NCBI GenBank assembly: GCA_948470475.1
Contig: OX419335.1
Location: 32,818,280-32,882,279 of the forward strand
Origin: Galaxea fascicularis
Taxonomy: Eukaryota > Cnidaria > Anthozoa > Scleractinia > Euphylliidae
Direction: 5' to 3'
Length of the DNA: 64,000 nt
In this document: piece after piece, positions 13,601 through 64,000 of the stretch
Numbering within the stretch: the stretch's first letter is position 1
Layout: every line of letters starts with the position of its first letter
The notes under the pieces: generated by a model
Seen by the model: the letters and a program-made list of their open reading frames with translations, nothing else
Database searches by the model: none
Told to the model about the DNA's origin: nothing
Program-made: the position numbers and the translations under genes

Positions 13601-15596
13601 AAGCTGCAATGTTTGAGCAAGGTTCATTTGATCCATAACAGTACAGCTGGATATTGTCTGATATGTGACAACTAATGTCCCTGACTGCACCTGTAGATAG
13701 AACAGCAAAGGACAACAGGCACAACAAGTTAATTATCTATTTGTCACTACCCCAATTTGATCATCATGTCACTTGAAATCCAGAGTACCCCCCCCCCCCC
13801 TTGGGGCTTAGGATTGCATAACAGCATTCACTTGTAAGGTCTTTCAAAAACAAACCAAAATAAAACAAAAAATATGCGCTGGTTTGCTACAAAGTAACCA
13901 CTTACTAAGTGTCTATACCCCCTTTAAGTTGCCACTTCTATGAAAAGATAGGGCTACACCTCTTTGAAACCTCTATTAAATTTCATTCTATCTTTGTAGG
14001 GTGCAGCTCTATTGTTTTAGGGCTAGGTGCCATTGTTTTGATTGTTTGTCTATTGTTTTCTTCAACCAATCTTGTGAGGTCTTGCAAATGGTGTAGGGCT
14101 GTCCCTATGAAGTGGGCTTGGCCACTTTTTGGTGGGGTCACATCATGATGCACACTCTCCCATTGTTTTTGTCCCACTAAGTGCCTACTGGAAAAACTTA
14201 ACGTCAGTGTGTGGTTCTTGAACATTTCCATACCTCCCCACACAGAAAGTCAACAGAAATTCCAAAGGGGAGGGGGGGTGGCAAAAGGAAACGTTTTTAA
14301 AGAAAAGTATGGAGCTGCATTGGAATGTCAGGAGGAGTGTGGGAGGGGAGGGAATACAAACCAAAAACCCATGGGAGGGGGGGGGGGGAGGGGTTATGAA
14401 TTTTTTCTGGAACCACACAATTTCTAACAACCTCTGTTCAGTGGCCAACCCTTTTTAAGTGGTTACATGCATCTCTGAGGGTGCATGCTTAATGGGGATT
14501 AGACTGTCTCAAACTTACCTGATAGGTTGTCTCCAAATATTATAGCCCTCACGGCCACCACAGACATACAATGCCTCAGTGAGTCAAACCTAAGGTTAGT
14601 GTTGATAAGTGCAGTGACAACACCAAGTTTGGACAACCCAAGCCATATGCAAACATATTCAGGGCAGGAATCCAGAAAGAGAGCTACAGTGTCACCCTTC
14701 TTGTAACCCTGTGTCTTGAAGTAATTTGCAATTCTGTTGGAGTAATCTTCAACATCTTGGAATGTCCATCGTTTGTGTTCAAAGATGAAAGCTGTCTTCT
14801 GGGGATGTTTGGTGATGGTTTGCCGAAACATATCTGCCAATGTGTCATTATGCTTTACATGCTTTGCATGCATGCTCACCAAATTTGAGACTACGTAAAC
14901 AAACCTGTGGAAAGTTAAATGAAGAAAGCTAAAGTAACAAATGAAAGTCACTTTATTTGGATTAAGAAGGGACTAACTTATCTACAAAATTGTTGCTAAG
15001 GAAAGTTCCCAACCCTCATATCTTGGAAACCCTAACTTGTAAGCTGTCTGGCTATGTTATAGAACAGGTTTTCAAGATTTTTAAGTCACAACCAATTTCG
15101 AAAGTCACGTGACCAGAACATAAAAAAGCCTAAAACTCGAGCAGCATACAACTCTTAAAACTTGAGAAGTTATTTTGATGGTTAACCATCGCCAAGGTGG
15201 AGAAGTTTGCATAACTGTGAGAGTTAAGTCCTGTCATAAGCACACAAATTCATACAGTTTTGTCACTATCATTACAGTTATGTATGTTAATTAACATGTA
15301 TTTACAGTGTCTGTTCCTATGGCAATTCACTCTTATCCAGTCCACCCACTTGATTTCAATATCTTAGTGATTTCCAACTTAGAAAACTTTAAACGAGGAC
15401 ACCAACTTGAGCTAACATATTTGTATGTTTGCTGGATCATGCACATGAGGCACCATTAGCAAATATCAAAATGGAATGCCAAAGATGGCCAGAAAAGCCT
15501 TTAATTTTGGGGAGGCCTGGAACCCAGTATGTTGCCGTGGTAACAAAACTGTTAAGCTCGGAGCACATTCAGTAGAATCTTACTGCAAAGAATCAA

Positions 15597-23800: not shown

Positions 23801-26800
23801 CTAGTAAAACCACACTTCTTTAAGAAGAGTTGTGCACGTCGGTCCAAATTATGGCTATATTTATAGGAGACTAAAAGTAACACTCTTGCACTTACCGGGC
23901 ACTTGTTATAACTGCAGCTTTGGGCATTCCAGTTGTTCCTGATGTGTAAATGTATAGCAACACATCTGACACAAAAAAGGAAAAAAAGGTTTGGACCAAA
24001 AAGCAACTAGTGAACCACACCATGACAAAGAACACCTGCCTTACATTTCCCACTGGTGGCTGGACTAAGGTCAGGACACAAAAATTTTTTTCTATTGATT
24101 ACCCACCCAGAAAAAATTGACGTGCCTTTCCCTGCTTCATTCAAACGAAATTCACTTCCCCCCACCTACCCTTTTCACAGAGAAATCCTGTAGTGGTCTT
24201 TGAGTGTTTGAACTGTTGGTTTTAAGGTAATGATGACACAAACTCATTTTCTTTGGTTTTTACAAAAGTTTGTTGCAAAATGGGTGAAAGAGAAAATGCA
24301 GCTATGAAATGTTTCTTGGATTTTTTAAAAAGCTGAATTGAGAAATTAGCTTCTTTCCGGAGTAAGATCCTAAGTTGCTTTTATCCAGGAGATTTGGTGA
24401 CTCATATTGGAGACCAAAAGATACTTTGCATGTAGACTCCTGGATAATGACCAAGAGTTGCTGTAAGTACACTATGGGATGGGAGATGTATCGATAAATG
24501 GTTGCGTTTAATTTTGTCTTCTCCATCTACCAGCAAGTGATTTAGGATGACTTGTCATGGGCTTTCCTGGTGAACTGTCATCAATTCTCTTGTCCAAATT
24601 AACTGCTGACACCACAGTGGATGGACCACTTCCCAAAGAGTAAAGCTGGACTATATCTGGTATTCTGGTTTGGATTTCCTTTATAGCACCTGCCAAGAAA
24701 TAGTTACTGTGAAAATTCGAAAACCGTGAACACAAGAAACATTTATGGAATGTTATTGTGTTTCAAGCAAAAAGCCAATCATGTGCAAGAAAACTAAACT
24801 GCAAACAGTAACGGTAAAAATTAGTTTGTGGTTTCATGTTGCTTCTGATTGGTTGCTACACAATGGGAAATGTCAAAGTCAAATCAAAGCATTCACGGTT
24901 TTTGGATTTGCACAGAAAGGGATCAAAATTATAAAATGAACACTGAGTTGATAAAAATATTGACCATCACCATGTGAAGAAAACAAGGACTTATTAACTG
25001 TGCCATAACAGGAAAGTTAATAAATTCACCCAGTTTTTTCTCTCAGTGACCAACCCATGCCTTTGATGATTATGCAGCAAACACAGACTTACAGTCTGAA
25101 GTTCTGTTGTGACATATCTCTCTTTTGACATCTCACTTTAATGATAATATTATTTTATTAATCCATAACGTAATGTAAGAAAAAGTCCAGCAAGTGTATG
25201 TTACATAGTCACTGGGAGAATGTGTAATGCTGTTTACAGATGTAGAACCCACCATATTAGACCACATCATTAATAGGATCACCTTGTCATTACGACCACT
25301 TTTTTTGTAGCCTGAACTGCATAAGCCCACCTATTTTCTTATTTGAAAACCCTGTTAATCTGACCACCCCATTAATACAACCAAAGTTTCATGGCCCAAT
25401 GGTGGTCATATTAATGAGGTTCCACTGTATTTTATAATAATCAGAGAGATGAGTATCTTTAATGGGGGAGGTTGTAAAATTGTTTGTCTAAGAACCTCCA
25501 GAACAGATGTAGTTAACACACTCATAACTGGATGGAGTACTGTTATGGCTTAGAAGACACTGTTACTTCATTTGCTCTGACTGCAAAAATTAATATCATG
25601 CATTATTAATGTTGATTATGCATGCACATTACAATTTTTTGATGATGGGCTTAAGATAGTATATAAACTCACCCAATGCACTTAATGAGATTGACATTGA
25701 GGCTTAATGGTATATGGGTTAACATGGTGGTGTTGTTGGAAGGACTCAGCATAAGAAAAGATGTGGTTTCATGAACTCAATATTTTTGAACCACTTCATC
25801 CCAAATAAGGGTTGTGTACTTAGAAGTCACTACTGACAGTTCTTTTTTAGCAATTAAATGAAGTTTCCCCCCCCCCCCTCCAACCCCTGTGCTGTGGTCT
25901 AGCAAAGCCCATTGGCCCCTGGTGACTTATTTTTGCCTTTGGGTGACCAGGAAATATTGGGTTTTACACCAAACCTATATATTGGCACTCTGGATCTCAA
26001 GGGCTTTGAAGTAATATCATTACTTTTCTTTGAGCACAGCCTTGCCCATAATCTTGAAATACGCCAAAGATAGGGATGGTAAATGGTAAATCCAAGACTT
26101 TGCAAGACAGAGAGACTAATATATTTTCTGCGAGCCTGAGACTTTTTTAGCCTTGCAAAAGAAATTGAGATGCCAAGATGACATTACGAAAATTCAAGAC
26201 AGCAAGACAGCTGAAATTTGACAAAAATTCTGTGAGACTCGTATTTTTTGAAGAACCATTTGCTAGGCCTAAAGAAGTTTTTTGACTAGTAATAATATAA
26301 CTTGAAAATAACATTAAAGAGAATAACAAATAATAATATTATGGTACCTGAGAAATTTGTTCCAAAGATTACAGCTCTTACATTAGCTACTGATATGCAA
26401 TGCCACAGTGAGTCCAGTCTCAGGTTGGTGTTGATAAGTGCGGTTATAACACCAAGTTTGGATAATCCTAGCCACATACAAATGAATTCAGGAGAGTTTT
26501 CTAATAGCAGGGCTATCACTTCTCCTTTTTGGTATCCCTGTGACTTGAAATAGTTGGCAACCCTGTTGGAATATTCTTCTACTTCTTGAAATGTCCATGC
26601 CTTCCCTTCAAATGTTATTGCAACTTTGTTGGGGTATTTAGCTGCAGTCAGTTGGAAAACATCAGCAATTGTTCTGTTATTCCTTCTATGCTGATGAGTA
26701 TTCCAAAGCACTCCTGTATAACGACATATACCACTGAAAGGCAACCGGTATAAAATTTTATCATTTTGATTCTCTAATACAAATTTTTAGAGGAGTTGCC

Positions 26801-41300: not shown

Positions 41301-44300
41301 TTAAGGTTAAAGGAAAGGCGATAATGACTCGATGGCCTTCAATCTCGATAAGAGGCCTCACGCAACCAAGCTGAATAAATTCTGTTGGTGAGTGTTTTAA
41401 CTTAAAAGTTAAATGGATGAGATTGCTTGTCTACATTTTTATGATCTTGCTTTTTAACAGCAAGAGCGTGAGCGCCCTGTGTCTGCTCAAAGTGATGACT
41501 ATGTCGAGGGCTTCAGAGCTGGTATTCGCGCGAAACACGAGAAAGAAAGGGAGCGTCACAGAGAATCGGTTCATGAGAGTGAAACCGTCTTGACTAAAGG
41601 TTTGTGTTTTCAATAGCTTTTTCAAATCTTCACTTTTTCAGTAGTAGTAGAAATGTCAGTCATAGTCAAAGAAAATCCGTATACTTTTCAAATGACCTGA
41701 ATAGACATGTTGAATCTTGGTGAAGAAATTAATGTAAAGCTGCTGGCTTCAGATTAGTTTGCCTTTCACGTTTGGTTTCTTCAGCTGTGACCAACTCAGT
41801 ATGACGTACCAGGCCACTCTTGACCAGTAATATGCAAGCACCAACAAACCTTGCTTCTCCTTTCCCGCGCTTTTAGTGAGCTCTTTTTTACTTTGGTGCC
41901 TGATTGGCTCGTCACACTCTTCGGCTACCGTTAAGTAATTTACACTTTTCAGTGAAAAAAGAGACGAGCAGCGTTACGAAAGTGTTCCTTTGCAGGTGCT
42001 TCGATTCACGATGCTGCCAAGAATGGAGATCTTGATCGAATCAAAGAACTGATAAACGTGGTACCCGAGTTGAAGAGCAAGATGGATGAACGTGGGATGA
42101 ACCCGCTGCACATAGCAGCAGCCAACGGAAAACTGGACTGCGTCAAGTGGCTTGCGGTCAGCGGTGTGGACCTAGCAGAGGAGACACCAACTGGATATAC
42201 CGCCATGCATTTGGCTGCTATGAATGGTCACGTGAACTGTATGATGGTTAGTTGAAAACAGAACTGTGTGTAATGTGCATTAGTGCATTCTCCTCCGGAA
42301 AAGAAAGTCGTGTGTGATGTTAACATACTTCCGCAGAATAGTGTTATCCTTCTTCTTTTATTGTCCATTTTGTGTTTCCTGTTGTTTATATGTGTACCTT
42401 TGGAAAGATAAAGAAGGAACTTCAACTGAAAAACGAGGGACTCCTCGTGGTAGCGTTTTTAATTTGAAGTTCCTTGTTTATGTTTCCAAAGGTAGGCATA
42501 GAAACAACAGGAATGTTTCAGTTACCAATGCCAAGTGTATTTTTTAGATTCTTTCAGCCATGGGAAGTACGTTGAGTTGTAGAACAGTGGATGAACTCAC
42601 TCCTCTTCATCTTGCTTGCATGAGGTAAGCATACTGTGGATTCTTTAGATGAGGGGAGGAGGAGGGGCTCTTGCCTTTCATGATTGGTTAAATTTGACAG
42701 TAAAGACAGTTTGATTTGATTTGATTTAGAGTTGACATGATTTAGTCTCCCCAATTACTGTGGCATGCGTTTTACCTTAGCAAATAGGACACGTCTCCAA
42801 ATCTTTTGTTTTCCAAATTAAAAACAATTCCTTGAAAAATGAAGCTGAACTTCGCCACATTGTCTTTAAGATAAGCGTTATTTAATTGCTGTGATTTTGT
42901 CTTCTTGTAGCGGGTATACAGAGTGCGTCAAGTGGCTTATTGCTAACAGAGCTAAAGTGGAAGTACTTGATAACAACGGTCGCACTCCACTGGACATAGC
43001 AGAGGTACACTCATTTTTTTTTTATAAGAACGTCTAATTTTGGAGCTGAGACTCGACGTTCTTATTTTTTTCGCGATTTGAGCCAGAAAATGTTTTAAAT
43101 TACATGGTATAAACACGATGTCGCGCCAATCAACTGCTGGTAAATTTAGCTTTACAGAAAGCATTGAACATAGAGGTTCACAACGCGACATAAAGTCACC
43201 AGATTTTGCAGTGCCGGAAAACGCGGAAAAGTTCATGTGTACATAGTATACTAATTTATAAAAAGAAATGAACAGAATAAAGACGTTCTAAACTGACTCT
43301 CAACCTGGGTTATGTTCTAAGCATGTTCTTAAAATTTATCTCAGCTTCTAATCAACAATGATTTAGATAAACATATACAGACAAAAACTAACGATAGAAA
43401 AGTCCGACGTTTCGGCGACATATTAAATTTTAGTTTCCCTTGACAATGGCGCCAAGATGTCGCCAAAACGTCGGACGCTTCTATCGTTAGTTTTTGCCTG
43501 TATATGTTAATCTCAGCTTCAACGTTCTTATAAAAAAGGTTCTTATAAGAAAAAGAGCGCAAGTGTTGCTTTGCCTTTTCTTGTCTTGCTGCTTTTTCGT
43601 ATGCTGCGCTCTGTCGGCACTGATATCTTTACAATGAATAACTCACAATGCTGTCTGAACCGTTCCTCCATTCTGTCGTATTTAGTGATCGGTAGTCCCT
43701 CCACAGTTACCTAGCTTCTATGTCTATCGGTTTTAACCACTGTGTGGGCAAAGACACCAGTACGAGTTTAATGCGGCTAGTCATTTCTCAGCTTGAACAG
43801 ATGTTTCTGAGTGAATTACTAAACTAATGTGTGTGTGTTGTTTGTTTGTTTGTTTTTAACAGGAATACGGTCATGAAGAATTGGTGAAACTCTTGAAGAA
43901 ATTTAGTAAGTTTTGGAGATGTTTAGTGAGTTAGATTGTATTGCGGTTCTCTACAATGTTGCCACCCCGGGTTGCCACTAGCCGTGGTGTCCCTAAGCTC
44001 TCAGCCTTTTCGTTTAGTTTCTTTGTCACATTAAGCCACATCCTACAAGCTTTATCGCTTGTTATATTTATGTGGAAACCTCAACCCAGGTAGTAGCTAT
44101 GCCATGCTGATGAGGCCTAACAAGGCTGAAACAACTTTATTTTATTTTATTTTGTACAAGGCGAACAAAACTGAAATAAAATAGAGATAGACTAGGCAGC
44201 AGCTGTCCACAGCTGCTAATACTTGGGCTCACATTTTCATTTGGTAGATTTAATAGGCAATTCCCGCTACCAGGTGACCATAGTGCCTGATATGTTGCTT

Positions 44301-48536: not shown

Positions 48537-51500
48537 ATGTCGGGCCTAACGGATAGCGAATTTCGCACTGTTCCAACAACGGACACCTCTCGGAATTTGG
48601 TATGTTTGTTCTTGAAGTTTTTTTCCGATGAGCTGCTCTAATTACATCTCTCGTAGCTCTCATAATACTTTGGTGCACTAAAGCTCCGAGTGTTTTGTAG
48701 AGGTTATGCGTGCGAGTAAAGACCAACCTCATTATGAAGGAATCTAAGACTTCGTGTTAAGCTGAAGGCGAAAAACCTTCAAATTCACAAACGATAAATG
48801 GGATTTTAAAACACCGCTAATTAAGTTTTAGTCGGCTGATAAGTTTAATGAGCTGCAGTCTTGGAAAACTGCCTCTGGCGGGGTATGAAGTAAAACATTC
48901 GTGGATGACATTATCCCAAAATTCTGCATTCGTCTCAACTCTTCGTAGATGTTTGTAATTTTTATAGAAACGAAAGATTGACTGTTTTTTTTCTTCCAAC
49001 CCCTCGATCTTCATCGCTGATCTCGCTTCAAGGGTGTTGGGTTGACACGCGGTTTGATGGGGTTCGCAAAAAGAAATCTTGCGCTTTCGAACGTCGAATG
49101 ACTGATCTTATCGCTGTTTCCAACCTGGGGGTCCGAAAAAATGTGCCTTAGTATATTTCAAAATACAGTTAAAACATGCTCATAGATACGGTTCAGTGTG
49201 GTACCAACATAGAAATCAGCCCCAATTTCAAATTTAATAGGCCTTGTGTCGTTGTGTAAAGCTTGGAATTTTTTAGTCAGTTCCAGATCATGATGACAGC
49301 TCTGTTTGGCCTGATTTTTATTATTCTTCCGATTTTGGTTTGGCTTTCAGTGTACTGTTATCCTGTCTAGACGGGTTTACCTCCTTTAAGATCGAAAAAC
49401 GCTGACTGTTTGACCTCTTAGTTCTATCTACGAGTTTTAGAGTTTTGTCCGCGACCCTAACAAAATTAATGCGTAAGAGGTAGTGAGCACTGTGACCACC
49501 AAGACGAAATTACACTGATAAACCTGACCTGGGTGGATCACACTCCCTTTGGTTGCTATTAAAATTCTCAGAGCTATCAACAGATTCAGTGACAGAGGAG
49601 ATTTTAAACATTGATGTCCTGCAGTCTGAGCATTGTTATCTTTCTTTTTTCTCTTTGTCGACAGCAGTATAACTTATTGACCTCACCTGTGCCGTTTGAG
49701 TGTCCAGAGACAATACTGTCTCTTTCCTCGTCATCATTAGCATCCCAAACAGTGGGTCTGGATCCTGACAGTAGGGTGTTTACGCCAATCCCATACCCTC
49801 CCAGGGTGTCAACTCCTTATCCAGTTATTGATTCTGCCTCGTCTGGAAAAGGTAACAATTTGTCAGACAGAGTTTGATGGTTGCTGTTTCGTTTCGTTAG
49901 CATTAATCCAGTGAATCATGTCAATTCAATTTATTTTCAGCAAGAGTGGTTCTTGTTTCAGAATCAGATTTAACATTACTTTGAGTTTGCTACAATTTTC
50001 CTTTATGCTGTTCTGTGACATTTGATAGAAAAATTTGTACCTCCAGCCTCTTTCTTCTTACCTAAGATAAAATGAAGCACCATTAAGTACAAAAATCAAT
50101 AAGTACAAAAAACTTCTTTAACAGTTGTCTTCTGTTAGGAAAAAACACTTACACCAGTCTCTTTGGCATGCAACTTTGGTAAAACTATCTAATAATTAAT
50201 TGGTTTTACCAATCTCATTTTACGATTTTTGAAAACAACACAACGTTTTTAGAAACATGTTTCAACAGAATCTTCTGTCATCTTTATTTTTAATTACAAA
50301 GCACAGAGTTGAATATATAGTGTGCGCAAAATGCCAATTAACTGAAGATGACAGAGGATTCTGTTGAAACGTGTTTTTAAAAAACGTTGTGTTGTTTTAA
50401 AAATTGTAACATGTCTGCTACTATCTAGACCTTTTAGCAATCTCATTTTTTTATTCCAGTAAAAAAATCAAATGAAAAGGAAATTTTAATCGATCTCATT
50501 TTTTTGTGTTTTCTTAATGTGGCTTATTTCCATATTTCTTTGAATAGACTGGCCAGGCCTATCACCAGAAAACAAACTTTTCCCATCACCTTGGGGATTT
50601 GAGTCCACCCTACATATTGGCCAGCAGTTTCAAGGTGGAGTGTTTCCAGTGGTAACAGGAAATTCACACACTGTTCATCCATGTGCTTTTCCCCAAAGTT
50701 GGCACCAAGCTGTTACTTCACCACAGAACTTCAGGTTAATGTTATGATATTATCATATTCTCATTGCATATCCCTCCCCCTCCTCCCCCTCCTAGTTTTG
50801 GTTTGAAACAGAATGCTGTCTTCAAGGGTATTAGGACCAGAATGCCTAACTCCATCCATTAATTTCCCTTAATTATAGTAAACTTTCATAAGCCATCTCT
50901 GTGGTTCATTTTAGAGATTGGCTTTTAGAAGCTTTGTAGGATTGTAGGCTGTTTTTTCTCACATTTATCAATTTTTTGGGCCATACACCTGTGATAAAAC
51001 TTCAAATTTATCTTTGTACTTTCCTTTAAAATAATTTACCCTGTTCTTTAAAACTGATCCCATGTGTTGATGACTCTTGCAAGACAGATATGAACAGTTT
51101 TTGGAACCACACACCCTGGTCAGAGTACAGCCCTGCATTCATTAAAGAGGGCACACAATATTTAGGCTTCTGACACAGAACTGTAGATTCCATGGTACCA
51201 CTTAAGTTGCTCTAAATTAAGTAGTTTCTTTGGCAAATAAAAGCTGAGACTAAGACAAAGGTATAGAAAATGACTTTGCTATAAAAAGCTACTGTATCTG
51301 AAGTTAGTAAAACTCTGTTTTTAACAGAACATATGTTGCCTGGAAAAAACTTAGCACCTGTAGATAAATTTTAAGACAAAAAGGTTTTCTTATCCTGATG
51401 AATTTAAACCTCGGGTTTTCACTAGTCTGTTAAAGTAACAATCCATCGATCTTCATTACTGGGAAATAGTGTAAATTATTTGTAGTTATACTTACAGTGA

Positions 51501-54500
51501 TTAGAGAGATGGACCAGAGCTGACACCAATTATTTAAACAGAGGGAGGTGTGCAAAAGTAGCTATTGGGATGGATAGTCTATAGACTGATTTGCCATCAA
51601 AATACTTGGGGATTTAACACAAAATTCTCATTGGAATTTGCTGGCTCTTGCCCCTTAAGGATAGCCTTCCAGGGCACTGGAGTAGCTAGTTCACTTCTAA
51701 ATAAGATAACAGAACAAAAAGTTTAAGTAAAAGTTTCCGTGTTCATTTTCTATTTGAATTGATTTTCTCAAATATGGAAATGGGTTCTGGAAAATTGTAG
51801 GGCTTGAAGCCTGTAGAATCCCAGTCAGAAAAAATAACCAGTTACAAATCTCATGACCTCGTGCCAGGTTTTGTTAGAATAATATTATTATAACACAATA
51901 ACAAGTCATTTTTCTTTTAGTTTTCACAGTAATGATTTCTGGTTTCCTGGTGATTCTACACTCGCAGAAGGGGTAAAGTTATATCTTGCATTTATAAGAA
52001 TACAAAGATATTATTGTCTATGAAAGTGTTAATTTTTGTTGAGTAAGAGCAAGTAATACTTTTTATTCTTTCAAGAATAGATATTCATTTGTTTTTTTTT
52101 GTTCACTACTAAACAATAGTTTGGAAGTGTTGGCGAAGGAAGTGATGTCATTGAACAGGATGCCAAAGTAACATCAAGCACAGAGTTAGGTAAAGAAGTA
52201 CTGTTCACTTCAGTTCTTTATTTTGCCAAAACAATGTCCATAATTAATACAATAATTGTAGGCTGGCAAGGGAGCCCAGAAGAAACCAAGAGGCTTAGGA
52301 AACCTCAGGGCTCCCTAGTCACCGAGAAAATAGCAAGAATAAAGGTTAAACTAAGTTAAGACTAAAATTAAATAAACAAAATGATGCGATTGTTTAGTGA
52401 AAAGAAATCAATAACAAGATAGAAGATATTTGTTAAGATTAAATTTGAACGAAATAACGAGGGAGCATTGCAAATATCAGAGTTCACCTTATCTTTACTT
52501 ATTTACAATAATGAATGCCTTTTAGTCATGTTTATTTATGTTTAAAAAAATGATGATACAAAATATTGTTTTGAGATTAATAATTATTTGTTCTAAGTGA
52601 ATTTTCCTTTCTCTGTTGAAATTGTACTGAGTTTGCACAAAAATGGAGAACCAAGTTCTTTATTATTTTCTTTTCTGTAATGTCCCTTGAAATATTTACT
52701 CTTTTCATGCTGAAGGTTGTTGATGAAACTTGACTACAACCAGCACCCAAATTCTCCTTTTCTTCTCAGTATAATTTCAATGATTGATTTTTTATTTTGT
52801 TGAGATGGTCTACCCTTTCCCCTTTGTAAGTGGTCCTAATATGCTGGAATAAATTTTGGATATTAATTCCATGTATGCAGATGTATATCAACAATAAATT
52901 GATGTGTGTGACAACCGTTGCACAGTATGGAGATGCTATGTATTCAGTTTGACCTGCAAACATTGCACATGTGTTTTCTTTACAATAGAGTGGTTTTCAG
53001 TTGTGTCTTAAAACCAAAACCAATATGATTCTGACCAATCACAACAGGCGTAAACAGTGCAATGAGCTAATGAGACTACAACGCAATTCCATGTGACTGG
53101 CACAATGCCCTGGAAAATGCATGTATGCAGGTCACAATTTGTTCTGGTCATAGAACAAAGTAATGCATAAGTCAATAAATTGACAACCACTCTATTTAAA
53201 TAAAATTTATATGGTATGTTATTTCTCATTAACATTACTTCAGTTTGCTTATCATTTACAGAGTCATCATGGAAGCAGGAGTTGGTCCTTCCCCCTGTTG
53301 CAGAACTGTTAAATTCATCAGTAAGACAATAATATTGATTGCTTTTTTACCCTGTAAATACAGTCAAACCTCCAGTAAGCAGACTGAAAACCTTGAAACT
53401 GAACACATGCAGTGTCCAACTCATACAGGGGGTCATATATGCAGGGTTTTAACAGAAATTCCCAGGAATGTGTTTGTTGGTGACACTGGGTATGGGAGTT
53501 TCCTCTGTAGATCAAAACTCCATGTTAGAGATAAAAAAGATTTTAAAAAGATAAATGAGAAAAATGTTGCATAATTAACTCTGGATTCAGAAACGGATTT
53601 AAAGACGAACATTTGCCCATCCTGAATTGGAGCACTGATGCTTCAGCCTGGCTAATTACTCAGAACAGAAGTGTCTGCCCTCCTAACATCAATCCCAAGT
53701 TGGTACAGCGGCCACTCTTGGGGACCTGGAAAGTGGCCGCTTAATAGGGGCTGGGGCCCGTTTCTCGAAACTCCCAAAACTTTTCAGGCCTATTTCAGGC
53801 ACTATAATTTCTTACGTATCTCAAAAGCAAAGATGCTTCCAAGGATGAAATTTTGGAACAAATTTACCCTTTCGTATCTAGAAATCATAGTAAAAGGCCA
53901 GTATTTTAGAATAAGCGGGTCACAGTTTTTGAAATGGCTTTTTGGGCCCTGAAAGTTTACGGGACTTTCGAGAAACAGGCCCATGGCCCCTTAACAGAGG
54001 TAAAAAACAATAGAAGAACTGTCATCAGGACTTAGACTACTGGCTGGGTAATAAGTGGTGGTTGTTTAATAGGGGTCTACTCAATAGAGGTTTGACTGTA
54101 ACTACATTAATAACATTTAGACAAGTCTGTACTTGACTGATGACTTCAATTATTGGCAGAGAAATTTGTTGAAGCATATACGTGTTGCTGGTTTCAGGCT
54201 GGACTGACATCTGCGTTGTTATGTTGTTTCCTGTGCTCTCCATATACTATGAAAGATAAATATGTGGTTCAGGAAAGTGTTATGACCTGTCCTATGAAAG
54301 TTGTAGAAATTCTGATTTAGCTTCATCTTATTTTGCATCAACATTCAAAGTGCTCAACTTTCACAGGAGAGGGGTGAGGGGAATGTTAATGCCTGAGCTG
54401 CTTGACATTATAGAAACTCCGTAATGTGGATATCAGTCATATAAACCAGTGAGAGCAACTTCGTTATTTTATATATTTTTTACATGAGTTTCATATTTGT

Positions 54501-57500
54501 TATTAGATGTATGAAAAGTAAAAAAGGATTATGTTAACTATTGTTTTCCAGAATGGCAGTATAAAGTGTGAAAGGGTTAGTCCAGTGGAAGTAAAGGTAG
54601 CAGATAAGAAACAGCAGAACATTCATGCAAAGGCAGTGGACATGAAACCGAAAGGAGCCATTTCATGTGGTAATACATTTTCACGTGCTGCTTTACAGAA
54701 AAATATTTACTGAAAAATAATTGTACCTGGTACATCAACCAAAAATGCTGTTACTGTACAGTTGATGGTATTGAAATTTATGTCTTTCTGTACATTTCTG
54801 TTTGGTAGTCGTCAAACATGATTAATTTTTAAAAGTCTCTTTGTTTCAACTCAGAAGCAAGAAGTCAGACACCATGGAAATTAAAGAACCCAAAATCAAC
54901 TCCAATGGCACCAAGTTTAATCAAAAGAAAAGGAAAGCCTAGAAAAATAGTCAATCCACATGTTTATTGTCACCAGAAAATAGTGTAAGTATCTCATTTT
55001 TAGAGCAGAGTGTGAAACCTTCACTCTCTGTGTCCACAGGCATTGCAGTTTTTTAGATCTTGATTGACATTCATTAGCACACAATTTGTATAAAATAAAT
55101 GTTTTTGTATGATTTTTCATTTTGCAATTAAGTGAGAGGGATACCGATTCATTCTACATTTTTAACGCTTTCATCATATTTATTATAAATATTTACTTGA
55201 ATGCTTTTCTGTGCTTGTAGGCAAAGAGAAAGAGAAAGAGCAATAAGGGACAAGATACAGTACCTGAGTACAATTCTGCCACAGACCGACTTAAGAAACA
55301 ACCGTCCTTCCAGGAAAGAAATCCTTGAAAGTGCCATAAAGCGCATAATGCAATTACAGGAAGACATTCGAGAGGCATACCTACAGAAAGGGTTAAAGAC
55401 AGAGGATTTAAAGGCCGCTTTACAAGGCAACATGGTGCTTAATTTGAGTACTCAGAGTTGTGTTACAGAAACTGAGCAAGAGTGTGATGCACCCTTATTT
55501 TCAGATGAATGTGGTAGCCTTCCTAGCACTCCAGATGGTACAGTAGATGGAGATCTGCCCATCACGTCGGCATCTTCTATCTCTGAATTGAGCAGCCAGG
55601 GGTCTGAGGAATCAGAGACTGCTTCGCATAGTTCAAAACATGTGAAGAGACCAATGAATGCATTCATTTTGTTCAGCAAAAACCACCGCACATTGTTCAA
55701 GCAGTTGTATCCTGGCAGAGATAATCGCAAGATCAGTACATTGCTGGCTGAAAAGTGGCGAAGTATGAAACCGGAAGAGAAAGAGCCATATAGAAGTGAA
55801 GCTAAAGAGTTGATGAGGCAGACAAAGGCATCTCATCCAGATTTCAAATACTGTGATGGGATCAAGAAAACTGGCCTCATGACTGCCAATGGTGAGAGCA
55901 GTAAGCACGCTGGTCTGGATGAAGGCTACAGGTAGGATTGTTTAAGCCTTAGATGCATGATGATGTTGATGATTTGTGCAAAGCATCAAGATTTCATGTA
56001 GCAAATGGCCGGGCAATAAAATTTGCAACAAAACTTTCATTCATAAAAGCTGTCTGATTCATTATTTATTAATTTTACATTTCCTTAATCTGTTGCCCCA
56101 GTTACACAGTACCAGTTAAAATCCAAAACCCTACAGAAAGTCAAAGGAAATTCCAAATGTGGTGGGTTGGTGTCTTTAGGAGAAGAGTTATGAAGGCACT
56201 TACAGTCATGTTAGTGATGCTTTGCTTTCAATAAGATTTGAAGTAGGTGGCTACCTCAGAACAGCACCCACCAAAGTAATATGAGAAACCCAGGAGAATT
56301 TCAACTGAATTTCCGACTTGAATGCGATAAAATACGCTCCGACTTTCAACAGAATACCCTCTGGAACTCCAGTGGGTGCCAGGTCCTATTGAAAACACTG
56401 GTGATGCACATATTGTGTACAATTATACAGACTTCTCTTTATGCAGGAGTCATGTGATGCTTTTGTTCACACAGCTGTCAACATGAAGTAAGGAATAGCC
56501 AAGATTATTTTACAATAAGATCACATCCAGCATATGCAGCTGTTACAACTGGTTTTAAAGAAGGGTTGCAGAAAATACCACCCTATACAAATATTTGACA
56601 GACCTTACAAAAGATCAAGCAAAAGCTTTTATTAAAGATGCAGCACCTCCCAAATTTGATAAGTTTTTGTAATTTTAATGTTTTTATCTTTATATTTTGT
56701 GCTACCATTTTGCAGGATTGGGACTCATAACCTCAGACAAAGGTAAGGTGAAAGTAAAATGAAGTTAATTTTTGTTTTTAGGCATCAGCTTGAGAAATGT
56801 GCAAAACAAAGTAGTTTTGTTTTCCAGTTGATTGATTGGTTCACATCTTTCAGCCCTTCCCGTAAAACCGTAAACACCAAAACAATTTCTGGAATGTTTT
56901 GCAACCAATCAGAAGCAACATGAAACCACAACCTAATTACCGTTACTGTTTGTGGTTTACTTTTCTCATGCGTGATTGGCTTTTTACTTGAAACACAATA
57001 ACATTCCATAGATATTTCTGGTGTTCATGGTTTTATTAGAAAGACTGTAACTTACTTGTATGCTGTGTTTCAGAGTTGCTTTATATACAAGTAAAAGGGA
57101 TTTGAAGCCGGCACCCAAGAGTAGCAAAAGGCAACAAGGTATAATAAATGTGGCAAACGATTTCTGACAGTTATCATTCAATGCTACTTGCAATACTGAC
57201 GCTCATGATCAACATGTTGAGATTGAACAGGTATTGGTAGTTTAATCATTTTTATTGATCTCTTTACAAGCCTCTCTGGTCAGTGAATATATTGAACCTT
57301 TGCAGAATTTTGACATTGCCTTTTAAAACACCTTTTATGGACAGTTGCTTTTCAATTCCTTTGTAATAGGACTCTCTATTAAACTTTTGGCTTTGAGCTC
57401 AATGTTATTATTCATTCAATGGTCTTAAAATACAGAAAAACATGTCACATCCCTGCTGAAAATTATATAACCAGGCGAGATCTTTGTGGCCATAAAATGC

Positions 57501-58667
57501 AATTTTCAGTGATCGCAGGGGTGAGTGTGTCAAGTCTGCTGTGGGACACCATAGTTACAGTACCATATATACGAGAAGGGCCATAAGGGGGTCTTCCTCA
57601 TGACTCATGTCTTTTAAATATGGCAAATAACAAATCATGATTGTATCACAAAATTATTTCTTTGTTTCACTTATCATGAGGGGCGTGTTGTTGACTGTTC
57701 GTGGCTTTTAACAACAGCCGCTCATGTTTCATGGGAAACCCTCTTACAGTGTATTCATTTTTTTCATGAGGTAAGTTGAGGGAGGTGGGGTCGTGCAAAA
57801 AAAATATGGCTTCAAAGGGGGAGGGGATCACCAAAAAATGGAGGAGAAAGGGCTAAATGTTTTGTTTCTTGGTTTAAAAACAGATAAGAAACCAAACATC
57901 CAGACAAACAGCTTGCCCAGGAAGTTGTATGAAATATTGCCAGCAACTACATTTGAAACCAAGTCAGTCCAGAAGGTTGCCACAGCCAATGACCCTCCAT
58001 GTCAATACAGCAACCACAGCCTTGTGAGGCAAATTTTACAGTCATGTGATAGTCACAACAGTGGGCCATCTTTTGAGGCTGGTATGGAGTGGTGTCACAA
58101 CAGTTGTGATCATTGGGTTCAGTGCGAACATTGTAAGCAGTGGTATATGTTACCAGATGAGATGAACCCAGCCTCTCTGCCTGACAAATGGTGAGAGCAA
58201 AATCAAGCAATGTCCCATGTTTGCAGTGACTATTGGGCAATGAGACCTTGTTCAGATGCTGTATTTAATGAATTTAAGAGTTGTAGATAGAGCAAAAGGC
58301 CCTGTCATCCATCTCAACATGTTCTAATTTGTGATGGTTTTCCTAGAGACATCACAATCAGCTTTCATGGATTTCATATTGAAGGCTTTTGTGCATGATG
58401 GCATATTAGTGAGGATTTGAATCAATTTGGGTTTAGAAGGGCCTGCAGTTTGCATTTTTTAGCCAGATTCTGTCATGAGTTCTTGTGATTTTCAGCACTT
58501 TTTTTTTAATTGGTAACTTACAATGTGTTGTTTTTCTTCAAAGATAAAAATTATATTTGATAAACACATTCACAGAGGCTTCATTTCTACCCAAACAATA
58601 GCAGAAAATCTGCTTCTTGTTTTGATGAGTTTTTGTTTTTCCCATCAGGTATTGCTGTAAATGCTAA
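48537..58667 (+). CDS. MEIOSIN: bHLH - HMG box - CW-like zinc finger protein, MEIOSIN/BHMG1-like, 664 aa
   Basis: 13 coding exons: 48537-48599, 49665-49851, 50548-50734, 51921-51972, 52120-52189, 53262-53320, 54552-54669, 54855-54984, 55221-55931, 56716-56742, 57074-57138, 57884-58190, 58649-58667. All are GT-AG and in frame. Layout: a long Ser/Pro-rich N-terminus, a basic patch (LIKRKGKPRKIV) near 270, bHLH 290-340, an acidic Ser-rich spacer, HMG box 430-499, then a CW-like segment 624-664. The bHLH plus HMG-box pair is known from vertebrate MEIOSIN/BHMG1, which works with STRA8 to switch on meiotic genes; orthology is inferred from this layout. The 3' end is the weakest part: the last exon adds only WYCCKC and a stop. 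An in-frame ATG at 48417 would add 40 residues. Confidence 0.85.
50225..50404. repeat. Inverted repeat, 'GATGACAGA..TGTTGAAAC' family
   Basis: Left 'atttttgaaaacaacacaac' and right 'gttgtgttgttttaaaaat' are inverted, and 'gaaacatgtttcaacagaat' pairs with 'attctgttgaaacgtgtttt'. Such inverted termini with 'gaagatgacaga' occur at the ends of Penelope-like retroelements; the coding part is absent. It lies in intron 2 of the bHLH-HMG gene. Confidence 0.65.
52256..52400 (-). mobile_element. Possible retroelement 3' end
   Basis: On the minus strand a unit with 'gagccctgaggtttcctaag' and 'tgggctcccttgccagcc' ends in an AT-rich tail. It resembles a short LINE 3' UTR. No coding frame or clear target duplication supports it. 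Confidence 0.3.
52985..53195. mobile_element. MITE with ATAGAGTGGTTKTC ends
   Basis: Left end ATAGAGTGGTTTTC and right end GACAACCACTCTAT are inverted with one mismatch. The 211-bp interior has no frame of note. It lies about 65 bp upstream of the exon at 53262-53320 of the bHLH-HMG gene. Confidence 0.75.
53361..54098. mobile_element. Pogo-like element with TA flanks, interrupted by a MITE
   Basis: Starts CAGTCAAACCTC and ends GAGGTTTGACTG, a perfect 12-bp inverted pair flanked by TA on both sides. Motifs 'gtggccgctta' and 'ttaatagggg' recur near the ends. The interior has no transposase and contains a second element at 53755-53982. It lies in intron 6 of the bHLH-HMG gene. Confidence 0.85.
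53755..53982. mobile_element. Nested MITE, GGGCCYGTTTCTCGAAA family
   Basis: Left GGGCCCGTTTCTCGAAACTC and right ACTTTCGAGAAACAGGCCC are inverted ends. It is inserted within the pogo-like element and is therefore younger. A related end occurs near 47780. Confidence 0.8.
55221..55931 (+). other. Single exon carrying both bHLH and HMG box
   Basis: The exon opens with the basic helix QRERERAIRDKIQYLSTIL. The E-R-x-x-R core is kept, but the usual upstream His/Asn is not. A loop follows (PQTDLRNNRPSRKE), then helix 2 (ILESAIKRIMQLQEDI). After an acidic Ser-rich spacer comes the HMG box starting VKRPMNAFILFSKNHR, with KISTLLAEKWRSMKPEEK and PYRSEAKELMRQTKASHPDF. The HMG box is of the HBP1/BBX-like sequence-specific type, with the PMNAF wedge intact. 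The exon is 711 bp, the longest of the gene. Confidence 0.9.
56863..57038 (-). mobile_element. MITE-like repeat, copy 3
   Basis: Ends TAAAACCGTAAACACC and GGTGTTCATGGTTTTA are inverted. Reversed, it matches 24717-24904 and 1-137 over most of its length. It ends 35 bp before the exon at 57074-57138, so it supplies the region around the branch point of that intron. Confidence 0.65.
57884..58667 (+). other. Exons encoding the CW-like zinc finger
   Basis: Exon 57884-58190 ends with MEWCHNSCDHWVQCEHCKQW, then YMLPDEMNPASLPDKW, and the next exon (58649-58667) adds YCCKC and a TAA stop. The pattern W-x-Q-C-x2-C-x2-W...LP...LP-x-x-W-x-C is that of CW domains, which read methylated H3K4. Canonical CW domains have their fourth Cys about ten residues after the third. 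Here the chain stops after CCKC, so the domain is either compact and unusual or the true last exon differs (a GTAAAT donor-like site lies right after WYC). Confidence 0.7.
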
Positions 58668-58929
58668 TCATTCTGCATGGGTGAGAGAAAAGAGCTGAAA
58701 CAGTTTGTCAAACATTAATATTTTGAATTGAGTATCCTACTTGAAGGATCAGCTGTGGCTCAGAAGGACATAACCAAACCTAATCTGAGGACAACTACAA
58801 GCCTAATTAAACTTAGGTCAAAATCATGTTAAAAGAAATTGGACTAAAAATGATAGCCACATGTCAACCTACTGACCTCCAGCAATGGTTTTTGCCAAAT
58901 CTCAGCAAGCAGTGGCTTAATTAAGCATA

Positions 58930-58955
58930 ATGTATGTATATATATATATATATAC
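58930..58955. repeat. TA microsatellite
   Basis: Short (TA)n run preceded by 'atgtatgta'. Nothing else is notable. Confidence 0.85.
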
Positions 58956-59263
58956 AATATTCTCCATTTGACATGAAGACAGGTGTGGATATTTGTCTGC
59001 AGACATTATCTGTTCCGAGAAGCGAACAGTGAACTGTGAGCTTAGAGGAACTGATAATGTCCAAGGAAAAATATTTTTTGTCTTAAAAGCCAAATGGAGA
59101 CTACTGTCTTAATTATCTTTCAAATATTTTTTGCAACATGCATTTGGGGAATGTCACTGGCTATTCCCTGGTCTTAGCTGGGGAATTTCCAGTCACATAA
59201 TGCATTTAGACCAATAATTATTATTGGGTGCAAACAATATTTGATGGATTATAAATACTGATA

Positions 59264-59677
59264 CAGGGCTGCAAATGATTTTTCTTTTTTGAAAGAACAT
59301 ATGTCCAACCAAGTCTCTATTAATTTTTAGTTGGATAAAACAGAAATGTGGTCAGATGTTTACATTTTTTTTTTTATAAATAATAATTTTATTAGTTGAC
59401 AAAACTTCAAACACGATTTACAAGATGATTACTAACCCTATAATAACATTACATTGAAATACTACCTAATCTAAAACTACAACAAATAACTAAACAAGAC
59501 ACTATATAAAAAACAACAAACCAAAAACAAAGAAAAAAAAAATGTTTACATTATTTACTTATTATTTGTGAAAAAAATTTGCTCGGACATAATATCCGAC
59601 CAAAGTTAAGATTTCATTGGACATGGGCTTATTTTAGTTGGACACAGTCCAAAGACCAACAGTTATTTGCCGCTCTG
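59264..59677. mobile_element. MITE with AGGGCTGCAAATGA ends
   Basis: Left CAGGGCTGCAAATGAT and right TTATTTGCCGCTCTG form imperfect inverted ends. The interior carries 'gtccaacc', 'ttggacaca' and 'gtccgac'-like inverted motifs. A retroelement fragment is inserted at 59367-59541. Confidence 0.6.
59367..59541 (-). mobile_element. Truncated retroelement tail with 11-bp target duplication
   Basis: The 175-bp insert starts with a T run (poly-A on the minus strand) and is flanked by the perfect direct repeat ATGTTTACATT at 59356-59366 and 59542-59552. This is the signature of target-primed reverse transcription. The insert is too short to carry coding sequence. Confidence 0.75.
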
Positions 59678-61738
59678 CCATAGCACCCACTTTGGTATAG
59701 ATAGGTTTGATTGACAAACCCCAGACCCTAGTAAGTGGCATCCTGGGGTTAAAAACCATGAAGTCAATGCCACACTTCCTGCAAAATGATTACAAGTGAA
59801 ATCTGTGCCCATCTCATGATCGAAACACACATGCATCAACCTGTGTGTTCCAGTTTAGTGAAAAATGTTGGATTTCATAGCCCCACTCCCCTTGTAATTT
59901 TCAGTGGGAGTATTTTAAAAGGTATGTCGATAAATGCACACTATGCAAATTTGCAGTGATATTTTCCCCAGGTTGAGTAGCAAGCTTTCCAAAGAGCTTG
60001 AAAGTACCACATGGCATGATGAAATTGCAGTCTCATAAATGTGTTGCCTGTGGAAACAGTCACCATACTATTTTTTAACTTTTATACATTATTTTGTTCC
60101 CCTGGAAAACTGTTTGGGGATTTACTGTTACAATTCAGCAGGTCTGTCTTTAGTTTCATTGGTTCAATAAGCATTTGCAGCTTTAGAGGTACTGGTATGC
60201 ATGGCAGAATGCAATAATGACATTCCAAAAAAATGAGTGCTTACAACATTTTGATGGAGAAGGTTCAATGTACATCACTGTATGCACCATATGAAAAGTG
60301 ACTATTCTGCCTTAATACAGTTGGAATCAGTCCAGATTGCTTCTACTTTGGCTTTGAAACTCAGTTACTATAATGTAACCAAGCCATTTATTTATATACT
60401 GGTACCCTGTTAAGTTTTGTAGGAAACTGAGGTGATATTTACTGGTTTCTTTTTTGTGTGAACTGAAAAAAAAAACCATGCAATAAGGTCCTTACTTGTT
60501 TTTATTAAGTACAGAAAAAAATTATTTATTGCAACATGAAAACAGTCTGAAAATTAAAGATTTTTCATTTAAAGTGCAAAATAGTCACTTTCAAAGGTGT
60601 TGAACAGGGTGCTTGAACTTAAGTTGACTGTGGGTCATTTTTGGCTAGAAAAGTTCTAATGGATGCTGGACATGATTTGAAATTTGTTTGTTGTACAGTT
60701 AGCTCTGTTGTGCATTCAATTTGATACTACAGCAAGTCGGTTTTTAGTGTATTAAACACTTGGTTGTGTTGCTGGTTAGGGTGGAAGATTTTTAGAGAAA
60801 CCATTTTAACATTGCAGATTTAGATATTTACATATTGAGTAGTTAGTTGATGAAGTGACACAATTCAGCTGTCATATCATTTAGTTCTTCAGATTGAATT
60901 TTATCATGTACATGTACTCTTTGTGAATAACAATTATTTCAAGAGATAGCAAATCTAGAAATAACAAGTTGTGTTTTTGAAATAAAGTACTAAAAACCAT
61001 CCTTTCACCGAGAAAACTGATTAATTTGGAGCAAAACAGGAATTTTGGGGTTGGATGATATAGATATAATTATAACAATCCGCAGTGTAGGACACAAGGG
61101 CATTAAGCAGCTGATTTCATGTCAGTTGTGAGCATGGAAAGCTCAAATGAATGTAAATACAGTGTAATACAGTTATTGGAAACAACACCAATAACAAATT
61201 TTTTTTTTCCTGCGTTCCCTAAAAGTTACCAAGTGAACAGTCCTGCAAGGCAAGTACTATACTAGTTAAGAGACTCACTGCCTGAAATCTCCTCTCCCAA
61301 AAAATGGGGGATATTCTATGTCAAACTTTGACACCTTACCCACTCCAGAAAATAAAATACAATTGTGGTTTTAGGAAAATGTGATCAAGATTTACACTAC
61401 TTTATAAACATCAAAATTAACATACACCCTTAACCTGCAGTTTCATTGTGATAGATAGTTGTGAACAGTCTTAAAAACATTTACATGTTAAAAGTGAGGG
61501 TATCAGTCAATGTTTTTGAAGAAGCTGTCTACAGTGAAGGATATCAAGACCGAGAAATTCTCTTGCCTTAGAGAAAGTCTCTTACACCGTTTGGCCACCC
61601 CTTAAAGTTGATTCTGTATGTGCTGCATCATCAGCTATCAGAAAATAAAGGTAAAGGGACACCTTATTTAACATCGGAGGTTTCTTTACTCTCTAGAGAG
61701 TATTCTCCCAGGAAGCTGACGGTGCGCTCATTTTACCC

Positions 61739-61908
61739 CCCCCCCCCCCCCTCTTTCCATTAGTACTCCGTTTTAAGGGTATTTAAAGCTACTTTGGCTA
61801 CATTGAAAAGAAAGAAGTCGAAACAAGGATGTGAGATCCGGGGATCGAACTTGGGACCTTATGCACCAAGGCCGCGCACTAACCGACTGTGCCAGCCTTG
61901 CTCCTAAA
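61739..61908 (-). mobile_element. tRNA-derived SINE, second family
   Basis: On the minus strand the head GCAAGGCTGGCACAGTCGG has an A box (TGGCACAGTCGGTTAGTG, 61878-61895) and a B box (GTTCGATCCCC, 61840-61850). A short body of about 90 bp ends near a G run (C15 on the plus strand at 61737-61752). It differs from the SINE at 8691-9060 in body and tail. Confidence 0.75.
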
Positions 61909-62576
61909 AAATAAATGTAGCTATTAAATGGCACTCTCAGGGTATTCTTAATTAACATGCTGCTGTTGTTTATTGCAAGTTTAAAAGAGGTTAAAACAAT
62001 AATTTGCTCATTATCATGTACATTCCAATAAATTCTACTAACCTAATGTGCAGAAATGTTGTAGTTAATAATCATTGGCAAACAAACCACAAGGTTCTCA
62101 CAAAAATGGACCTTGTTATACTTGTTTTGTTTTAAACAGCTACTTTTAAACTTTTCTTTAGCTTAATGTCATCTAAACTAGGGTTGCTGATGCACCTAAA
62201 GATTGTAAGTATACCGGTAATTAAAATTCTAATTACAATGACTCATGTAAGTGGAACGAATATTGTTTTGCTGTAACCAGTAATCACCAATACATTGATG
62301 AAAGCAGTCATTGCATGTCGATTAATTGCCTTCTTCTGTATCTAACACAAATCAACCAAAGTTTCACACGTTTTATCAAAGTTTTGCACTAGATAAATTA
62401 TTAAAAGTGCATAAAACGATTAAATTAAGCCATTTCGTAGCTATAGATTGCACCATCTCATTTTAGATGAACAACTTTGGGAGAAAAATGGATCAAATAA
62501 TTGACATAAATAATTTGCAAAGCCTTGAAAACAAACATGCACAAGATACCTTGGTGTCTGTTATAAAAATGTTGTA

Positions 62577-62746
62577 CAAGGCTGTGCTTTAAGAAAATTA
62601 AAGTGGTTGGGTGCCCAAAATAATCTCTAAGCCCTTGAAATCCAGGGCGCCCAGCAAACTTGTACAAGTTTGGTGCAAAAACCAATTATTTCCTGGTTGT
62701 CTAAATGCAAAAATGGTGACCAGGTGCCGCTAAAGCACAGCCCTGG
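62577..62746. mobile_element. MITE with AAGGCTGTGCTTTAAG ends
   Basis: Left AAGGCTGTGCTTTA and right TAAAGCACAGCCCT are inverted, and GTAC occurs just outside both ends. The 170-bp interior has 'gggcgcccagc' and 'gggtgccca' inverted motifs. It lies in the 3' flank of the R3H-like gene. Confidence 0.7.
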
Positions 62747-62861
62747 TTGTACATCTACAATAGTCAACATACATGTACATGTATGTGACTGTGTAAGGTT
62801 GCAATTAAGTCACCATAGTGTATAACAATAGTATTCATGTGGATTGTCTGCTCCTCAAAAC

Positions 62862-64000
62862 TTACACTTTGTTGGTTCTGGATTGCCTTGACAGTCTTTT
62901 CTTTGGAGGGCCATCTTGGTCAAGAACATCACCATCACCAGTTTGCTTGTTATCAACAACAGTGGCAGAGTATTTGCGCTTCACCTGATTCTTCGGGCTT
63001 TCTTTTGATGCAGCAATGCTCAACTCACTAAGCAACTGATCAACACTGCCAGGCTTTGGGATCTTTGTGTCAGCTTGTTTAGACAGACGTACCGTAGTCA
63101 GGTTATTCTCAGCTTTAGTCCCAATCCTTGCACGAACTTTATAAAGCTGAGCCACCTTGTACACATCATTTCTTTCCCTGGCAGTCATGGGCTTCAGCTC
63201 ACATTCAACTGTGGAGGTGTCTGATACAAAAAAGGAGATCTTAGAATTGACTTCAATGAGGAAGCTCATGTCACCAAGAGGTTCATCATCTTCCTTAATA
63301 ACTGTGGCTTTATCACTGGTACTTGGTGTCCCACCAACAGAGGTCTTCATGTTCAGCTTCAGTTCTTCAGTTGAATTATCTGGCTCAAATTGTTTGCAAT
63401 TATTTGTTGCCTCATTGTCATCAGAATCTGCCTTTGATGTTTTCTTACAAGACCGGTCCTTGTTTGTATTTTCCTCATCACCACTGTGAAGTGAATCTTT
63501 TTTCTTTCCTTTTGTGTTCATCCTTGTCGTATTGCGTGGACTTTCTTCTGGGGAAACTTCATCAGATTCTTCTTCAAACTCAATTGATTTGTTTTTCTTG
63601 TTGCCTTTCTTATTCTCTGGGTCTTTCTGCAGTTTGGCATCACCTGATGCTCCTTCACCTTGTAAATGTCTTTTACTTTTCTTGGGATTAATGTTCTCTT
63701 TGATGTCTGTTAAGTTTCCTTCAAGCCCCATATCAGATTCTTCCTGAAGACTGGCTTCTGACATCTCTGCTACTGAAGTCTCCTCAGTGTCACATCTGTT
63801 TTCTTTTACCTGTCTTCTTCTTGAAGAATTCCTTTTCAGGCTTTTGGGTTTTGAAGATGCTTTAGTAAGCTCCCCATTCTCTTTGTGAGAGCTGGTTTTG
63901 TCTTTTCTTTTCTGTTGCTGTTTCTTAGAATTTGCTAACAAGATGCTTGGTAATCCACAAGCCTCAAGGTCAATGGGTGGTTCTTGTTCAGCTGCAGCAG
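62862..64000 (-). CDS. Lys/Glu/Ser-rich nuclear protein with R3H-like segment, C-terminal part
   Basis: An uninterrupted minus-strand frame runs from the right window edge to a TAA at 62862-62864, about 379 codons, so the gene starts outside. From the edge it reads EPPIDLEACGLPSILLANSK, then long basic and acidic low-complexity stretches with Ser-Asp/Glu motifs (EFEEESDEVSPEESP). Near 63072-63266 lies an ordered segment, MSFLIEVNSKISFFV, ECELKPMTARERNDVYKVAQ, LYKVRARIG, that resembles an R3H nucleic-acid-binding domain with Tyr in place of the usual His. The C-terminus has a nuclear-localisation-like PKKRLSRQSR. I do not recognise the protein. It may bind RNA or single-stranded DNA in the nucleus (inference). 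Confidence 0.8.
   Translation of the reverse strand, partial: AAAEQEPPIDLEACGLPSILLANSKKQQQKRKDKTSSHKENGELTKASSKPKSLKRNSSRRRQVKENRCDTEETSVAEMSEASLQEESDMGLEGNLTDIKENINPKKSKRHLQGEGASGDAKLQKDPENKKGNKKNKSIEFEEESDEVSPEESPRNTTRMNTKGKKKDSLHSGDEENTNKDRSCKKTSKADSDDNEATNNCKQFEPDNSTEELKLNMKTSVGGTPSTSDKATVIKEDDEPLGDMSFLIEVNSKISFFVSDTSTVECELKPMTARERNDVYKVAQLYKVRARIGTKAENNLTTVRLSKQADTKIPKPGSVDQLLSELSIAASKESPKNQVKRKYSATVVDNKQTGDGDVLDQDGPPKKRLSRQSRTNKV

Follow-up and report, generated by a model that had tools for sequence, protein, structure and literature searches.

A stony-coral protein with a helix-loop-helix, an HBP1-type HMG box and a truncated CW finger

A stretch of 64,000 nucleotides of the Galaxea fascicularis genome (C1:32818280-32882279; the window) carries a plus-strand gene whose 664-residue product, assembled from the sequence, joins a helix-loop-helix (HLH), an HMG box and, at its C-terminus, a CW finger that stops short. 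We consider it probable that this protein is a single-copy transcription regulator of stony corals, with an HMG box of the HBP1 type and a truncated CW finger of the MORC type that would make contact with the tail of histone H3. Judging from its sequence and its relatives, the three-domain protein is real and is old within the stony corals.

Such a protein would act in the nucleus. The HLH would pair it with itself or with another HLH protein, probably leaving the canonical E-box unread, and the HBP1-type box would bind and bend DNA. The shortened C-terminal finger would contact the H3 tail, most likely where H3K4 is methylated, and this contact would tie the protein to active promoters. Sequence and relatives show the structure of the gene, the order and conservation of its three domains, the loss of two E-box residues and the truncation of the finger; the nuclear site, DNA target, partner, histone binding and tissue are inferred.

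A three-domain gene of stony corals

The gene occupies positions 48537-58667 in 13 exons. A single frame runs from the ATG at 48537 to a TAA stop at 58665-58667, and all 12 introns are GT-AG with consistent phases, as the original prediction had read them; its placement of the basic helix-loop-helix (bHLH) and the HMG box in one exon is likewise borne out (exon 9). In the genome searched (416.6 Mb in 170 contigs) the gene is single-copy. A search with exon 9 gives 25 matches at E<=1; apart from the gene itself, all 24 lie within or around the HMG box, so that this exon has no second full match. Likewise, exon 12 has no second full match, its one other match being a MORC-type CW (E 0.5).

To read the protein searches, it should be kept in mind that only candidates sharing words with the query were scored. 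Residues 260-664 gave seven matches at E<=0.001 from 3164 candidates. Five are family members (Montipora foliosa P0001 and P0004, M. capricornis P0003, Oculina patagonica P0002 and Desmophyllum pertusum P0005), and the remaining two are fish SOX-10 entries. A six-row alignment, A1, returned 37 matches at E<=1 when 8000 candidates were scored: 19 belong to the coral HLH-HMG-CW family (P0001-P0003, P0005 and P0008-P0022), and 18 are other HMG-box proteins, eight of them named SOX. With a trimmed HLH+HMG alignment as query, 47 matches were obtained at E<=10 (7996 candidates), 46 of which appear by score or inspection to belong to the coral family; 19 of the 47 and some others were read as sequence, and the remainder were assigned by score. 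The exception is P0067 (E 0.14), a different HMG protein, and eight of the 46 are single-exon pieces (P0062-P0066 and P0068-P0070). An NCBIfam scan of P0001 and P0002 gave no match.

The original prediction had described a bHLH, an HMG box and a CW-like finger in one cnidarian protein. This combination recurs at full length in M. foliosa and Oculina, and parts of it are seen in Stylophora and Desmophyllum. Alignment of the window protein with that of Oculina spans all 13 exons, and 372 of 657 aligned residues agree; with M. foliosa 379 of 610 agree, exon 10 being nearly missing and exon 2 partial. The family members with a species name come from Montipora, Oculina, Desmophyllum and Stylophora. 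By taxonomy, M. foliosa belongs to the suborder Refertina of Scleractinia, whereas Oculina patagonica and Stylophora belong to its suborder Vacatina; Desmophyllum we take to be a stony coral as well.

These relatives bear on whether the bHLH and HMG part and the CW part are two neighbouring genes wrongly joined, which we regard as extremely improbable. Stylophora does have two annotated proteins, P0041 for the N-terminal half of the gene and P0022 (Stylophora pistillata, 312 residues, annotated as Sox-13-like) for the HMG box and CW, though the split precedes the HMG box. Each lies on a contig of 652934 bases, and the Stylophora gene appears to have been split into two annotated genes. A single predicted protein holds both HMG box and CW in M. 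foliosa, Oculina and Stylophora (these too are predictions), and the proteins of the first two are continuous from a matching N-terminus to the CW. A chance frame or a joining of genes was rejected because the relatives match end to end. Montipora also has extra copies, P0003 and P0004, that are partly broken, the former with a foreign N-terminus that is gag-like by inspection; their state suggests duplication followed by decay.

The HMG box and the helix-loop-helix

Pfam finds HMG_box at residues 430-498 of the window protein with an E-value of 9.3e-18, and VIA-align confirms the HMG fold. When the Oculina box was compared with PDB chains by phmmer, scores per box were 61.8 bits for HBP1, 59.8 for CIC and 55.8 for SOX9; an SRY-HMGB1 double-box chain heads the list at 71.6 only by summing its boxes (43.5 and 30.4). 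Simple pairwise scores for the window box are 192 for HBP1 and 191 for CIC, then 173 for a SOX-type box of the genome.

Trees place the box similarly, with the reservation that they use few columns (74), that the bootstrap was unsettled in both, and that HBP1 supplies one row to the first and two to the second. In a 53-row tree, 15 coral boxes group with HBP1 at 99/90, CIC joins at 97/80, and 25 SOX-side rows separate at 96/84; the coral rows alone form one clade (74/85). In a 42-row tree that adds BBX and the genome's own HBP1, the coral boxes and HBP1 group at 92/94, and CIC, BBX and the genome's CIC-like box at 98/97. The 28 loci L001-L028 span 31 of the 37 HMG places in the genome and hold 31 boxes, the window itself being one of the other six. 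Boxes of 55 residues or fewer (L018, L024) and long or partial ones (one each from L019, L022 and L027) were omitted from the 53-row tree; L002, L005, L011, P0003 and the non-SOX boxes of L017-L028 except L021 were omitted from the 42-row tree. SOX membership was rejected because the trees put the coral boxes outside the SOX group.

By phmmer with the Oculina row and by tree, then, the nearest single box is that of HBP1. The coral protein differs from HBP1 in having an HLH and a CW besides and in having no AXH domain, none being found in Pfam scans of the window protein or its relatives at E up to 1. Three AXH matches occur in the genome, on C5 and C12, and one of them (C12:4957460-4957642) belongs to a separate HBP1-like gene with an HMG box about 1.7 kb further on. 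That box is split by an intron, whereas the box of the three-domain gene lies in one exon.

AlphaFold, given exon 9 with 26 rows, models two helices (2-25 and 38-62) with a loop between them; the predicted local distance difference test (pLDDT) score reaches 91 and 92 in the helices' best blocks of ten and is 68-69 around the loop. Searching the PDB with a profile built from 8 coral HLH segments gave 42 sequences at E<=10, of which 40 are bHLH or HLH proteins, the best being MITF (E 0.0045), and two are CRISPR-associated chains. The Pfam HLH score lies above its cut-off in two of the five relatives scanned (Oculina P0002, 24.1 bits; Desmophyllum P0005, 25.9) and below it in P0001 (13.3) and P0003 (14.8). 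An HLH is found at E<=0.1 in 17 of the 26 members of alignment A4, some of which are missing part of the segment.

Glu9 and Arg13 of the bHLH basic region contact the E-box. The coral proteins read Q-[KR]-E-R-E where MITF reads E-R-R-R-R, so that in the register of the MITF alignment Glu9 is replaced by Gln and Arg13 by Glu. Both replacements occur in all 15 rows of alignment A2 that hold the basic region; the disturbed copy P0004 differs. The coral segment thus resembles MITF and USF in its helices and loop and departs from them at these two positions. Because two E-box residues of the basic region are lost, the HLH probably serves in pairing or dimerisation.

The original prediction called the protein MEIOSIN-like; it agrees with MEIOSIN/BHMG1 only in its content of a bHLH and an HMG box within one protein, and its HMG box groups with HBP1. 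We know of no CW in vertebrate MEIOSIN/BHMG1, with which the coral protein was compared by domain content only. An orthologous cnidarian MEIOSIN with an extra CW, which would work with a STRA8-like partner to bring germ cells into meiosis, has shared architecture in its favour and an HBP1-type box against it, the latter from trees that compared the coral boxes with those of HBP1, CIC, SOX and, in one tree, BBX. MEIOSIN was not seen among the matches to residues 260-664, A1 or the HLH+HMG query (3164, 8000 and 7996 word-sharing candidates), though the first two returned vertebrate SOX proteins; this absence is weak evidence because only word-sharing candidates were scored.

Passages of one report describe MEIOSIN as having bHLH and HMG domains and acting with STRA8 in mammals, the two having a common motif, CNCCTCAG, that is not an E-box (PMC9604137), which would suit an HLH that has lost two E-box residues. 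Zebrafish has a MEIOSIN ortholog according to a passage of another (PMC12289312). The passages found for MEIOSIN together with cnidaria treat mammals or are entries in reference lists; literature searches gave no cnidarian MEIOSIN, nothing for MEIOSIN with HBP1, and nothing for stra8 with coral or cnidarian meiosis or germ cells. Taken together, we judge orthology to MEIOSIN unlikely.

A CW finger that ends after its third cysteine

The C-terminal CW segment of the original prediction is present and is incomplete. Pfam zf-CW matches residues 633-663 of the window protein with an E-value of 5.5e-6, covering profile positions 1-31 of 47, and exceeds its cut-off in P0001 of M. foliosa (34.5 bits) and P0002 of Oculina patagonica (33.3). 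Among PDB chains the closest are MORC3 (E 3e-7), MORC4 and then ZCWPW1 (E 5e-4), with which the coral finger shares W-V-Q-C-x2-C-x2-W ... LP-x-KW-[YF]-C. Unlike these, it stops after the third cysteine and is without the C-terminal half. The ends are WYCCKC in the window, WYCCET in Montipora, WYCCPHVDYPA in Stylophora and WFCPLHVKVSAPVFD in Oculina, so that in all four species the protein finishes 3-12 residues past the third cysteine, with tails that are unlike one another. For comparison, the complete MORC-type finger of the genome, WYCKDNPYPHMRSC, has its fourth cysteine 11 residues beyond the third. Each of the four species has a Cys at +1 or a Cys or His at +3 past the third cysteine, and this residue might be a substitute zinc ligand.

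A second half of the finger, frameshifted just past the stop, was considered and dropped because three other species end there too and because no alternative acceptor exists: among AG acceptors within 58190-62800, only 58649 yields W-[YF]-C. The genome has five CW matches, complete on C4 and C9, partial on C11 and C3, plus that of the window. By inspection, the finger on C4 is MORC-type, that on C9 ZCWPW-like and that on C3 KDM1B-like. Also by inspection, the match on C11 (C11:17722705-17722812) lacks the usual WVQC start. Most likely, the coral CW was gained from a MORC-type finger and shortened before the two coral suborders split.

In five pairwise comparisons, CW identity is 20-24 of 30 residues versus 21-41 of 85-91 in the preceding linker (hypergeometric p 4e-3 to 4e-6, the comparisons being non-independent since sequences are shared). 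Two tryptophans aligned with those of MORC3 (in W-V-Q-C and C-x2-W), which we take to form the methyl-lysine pocket, are kept in all four intact copies; the second is lost in P0004. The retained tryptophans, and MORC3 as nearest solved relative, make the chromatin reader of the original prediction plausible, although the finger stops short. The coral factor is possibly a reader of methylated H3K4.

Several observations weigh against a histone-contacting regulator with three working domains. In the window, two of the three Pfam profiles fall just below their cut-offs, HLH at 17.1 bits (E 0.0049; 19.7 bits in another scan) versus 20.7 and zf-CW at 26.7 versus 27.5. Only the HMG part was matched by VIA-align, from which we draw no conclusion about the HLH because that list is limited to the HMG box. 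In the simple pairwise scores for the P0013 box, HBP1 (146) is outscored by CIC (170) and by several SOX boxes. In the 42-row tree a long HBP1 branch arises from within the coral rows, which alone are not a single clade (two changes; 45% of 200 bootstrap trees unite them). A single-sequence model of P0022, made without alignment, is too poor over the CW (pLDDT 34-47 per block). The fourth canonical cysteine is absent from the window protein, P0001, P0002 and P0022, and thus from all four species, so zinc binding by the CW is not assured. Finally, in P0004 of M. foliosa the basic region is disturbed and the CW broken.

The missing cysteine and the broken finger of P0004 would also suit a DNA-binding regulator derived from HBP1 whose truncated CW binds nothing and is a mere remnant, or serves purely as a structural tail, as would the joining of the HMG box to HBP1 in the trees. 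We consider this rather unlikely, as the CW has changed less than the sequence flanking it, both tryptophans persist in every intact copy, and the AXH domain of HBP1 is missing. Very unlikely, in our estimation, is that corals keep a MEIOSIN-type initiator from before the bilaterians, in which DNA binding by the HMG box and partner choice by the HLH would be combined with H3K4-methyl reading by a shortened CW with a shifted fourth zinc ligand.

Gene map, neighbours and significance

The exons of the gene and other features of the window are listed below.

Positions of the exons of the three-domain gene and of other features within the window
Feature	Position	Strand	Content or basis
Exon 1	48537..48599	+	Start codon, MSGLTDSEF..; matching starts are MAGQTDSEF in Oculina and MFGQSESDF in Montipora
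Exon 2, N-terminal region	49665..49851	+	63 residues, of which 28 aligned in Montipora and 62 in Oculina
Exon 3, N-terminal region	50548..50734	+	Assembled frame and alignment to relatives
Exon 4	51921..51972	+	Assembled frame and alignment to relatives
Exon 5	52120..52189	+	Assembled frame and alignment to relatives
Exon 6	53262..53320	+	Assembled frame and alignment to relatives
Exon 7	54552..54669	+	Assembled frame and alignment to relatives
Exon 8	54855..54984	+	Conserved QTPW motif; basic stretch preceding the HLH
Exon 9	55221..55931	+	HLH (residues 291-335) and HMG box (430-498); Pfam, AlphaFold model, trees
Exon 10	56716..56742	+	IGSHILRQR in Oculina; nearly all missing in Montipora P0001, where 1 of 9 residues aligns
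Exon 11	57074..57138	+	Assembled frame and alignment to relatives
Exon 12	57884..58190	+	Linker, then first 26 CW residues (WVQC..LPDKW; intron splits last W codon)
Exon 13	58649..58667	+	Remainder of the truncated CW, (W)YCCKC-stop
Inverted repeat in intron 2	50227-50403		Nested; arms of 44 nucleotides (89%) and 29 nucleotides (90%)
AMP-binding enzyme exons	3010-3618, 7626-8246, 9263-9667, 14502-14972, 20841-21509, 22077-22466, 26289-26786	-	Look-alike exons
Ankyrin-repeat exon	41956-42252	+	E 7e-17; upstream of the gene
Large open frame	62868-63998	-	Weak R3H match (E 7e-5, 23.2 versus 26.8 bits); downstream of the gene

The nested repeat of intron 2 resembles a small foldback transposon. 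The AMP-binding exons apparently form a tandem array, of fatty-acid transport or acyl-CoA synthetase type by inspection; three that were scanned gave AMP-binding at 1.6e-24 and AMP-binding_C at 1.8e-7 and at 7.8e-4, the last below cut-off.

A survey of Acropora digitifera (Gyoja 2012), as summarised in PMC4083563, counted 70 bHLH genes and described pearl, amber and peridot as three new HLH families. These families received their names from work on a coral, and the summary mentions no HMG box or CW finger; the gene described here may already be counted among the 70. MEIOSIN never occurs together with zf-CW or a CW domain among the literature matches listed, for which the three-domain combination was not queried exactly, and the protein may have been described before.

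It is unusual for a transcription factor to combine a possible histone reader of its own with a dimerisation domain and a DNA-binding box. The coral protein has been conserved in both suborders of Scleractinia yet is unnamed, one copy being labelled Sox-13-like. If the protein is somatic, its architecture would still be unusual, and it would provide a naturally occurring case of a shortened CW finger. If it is expressed in germ cells, corals, whose spawning biology is important to reefs, would allow the origin of the vertebrate switch into meiosis to be tested.

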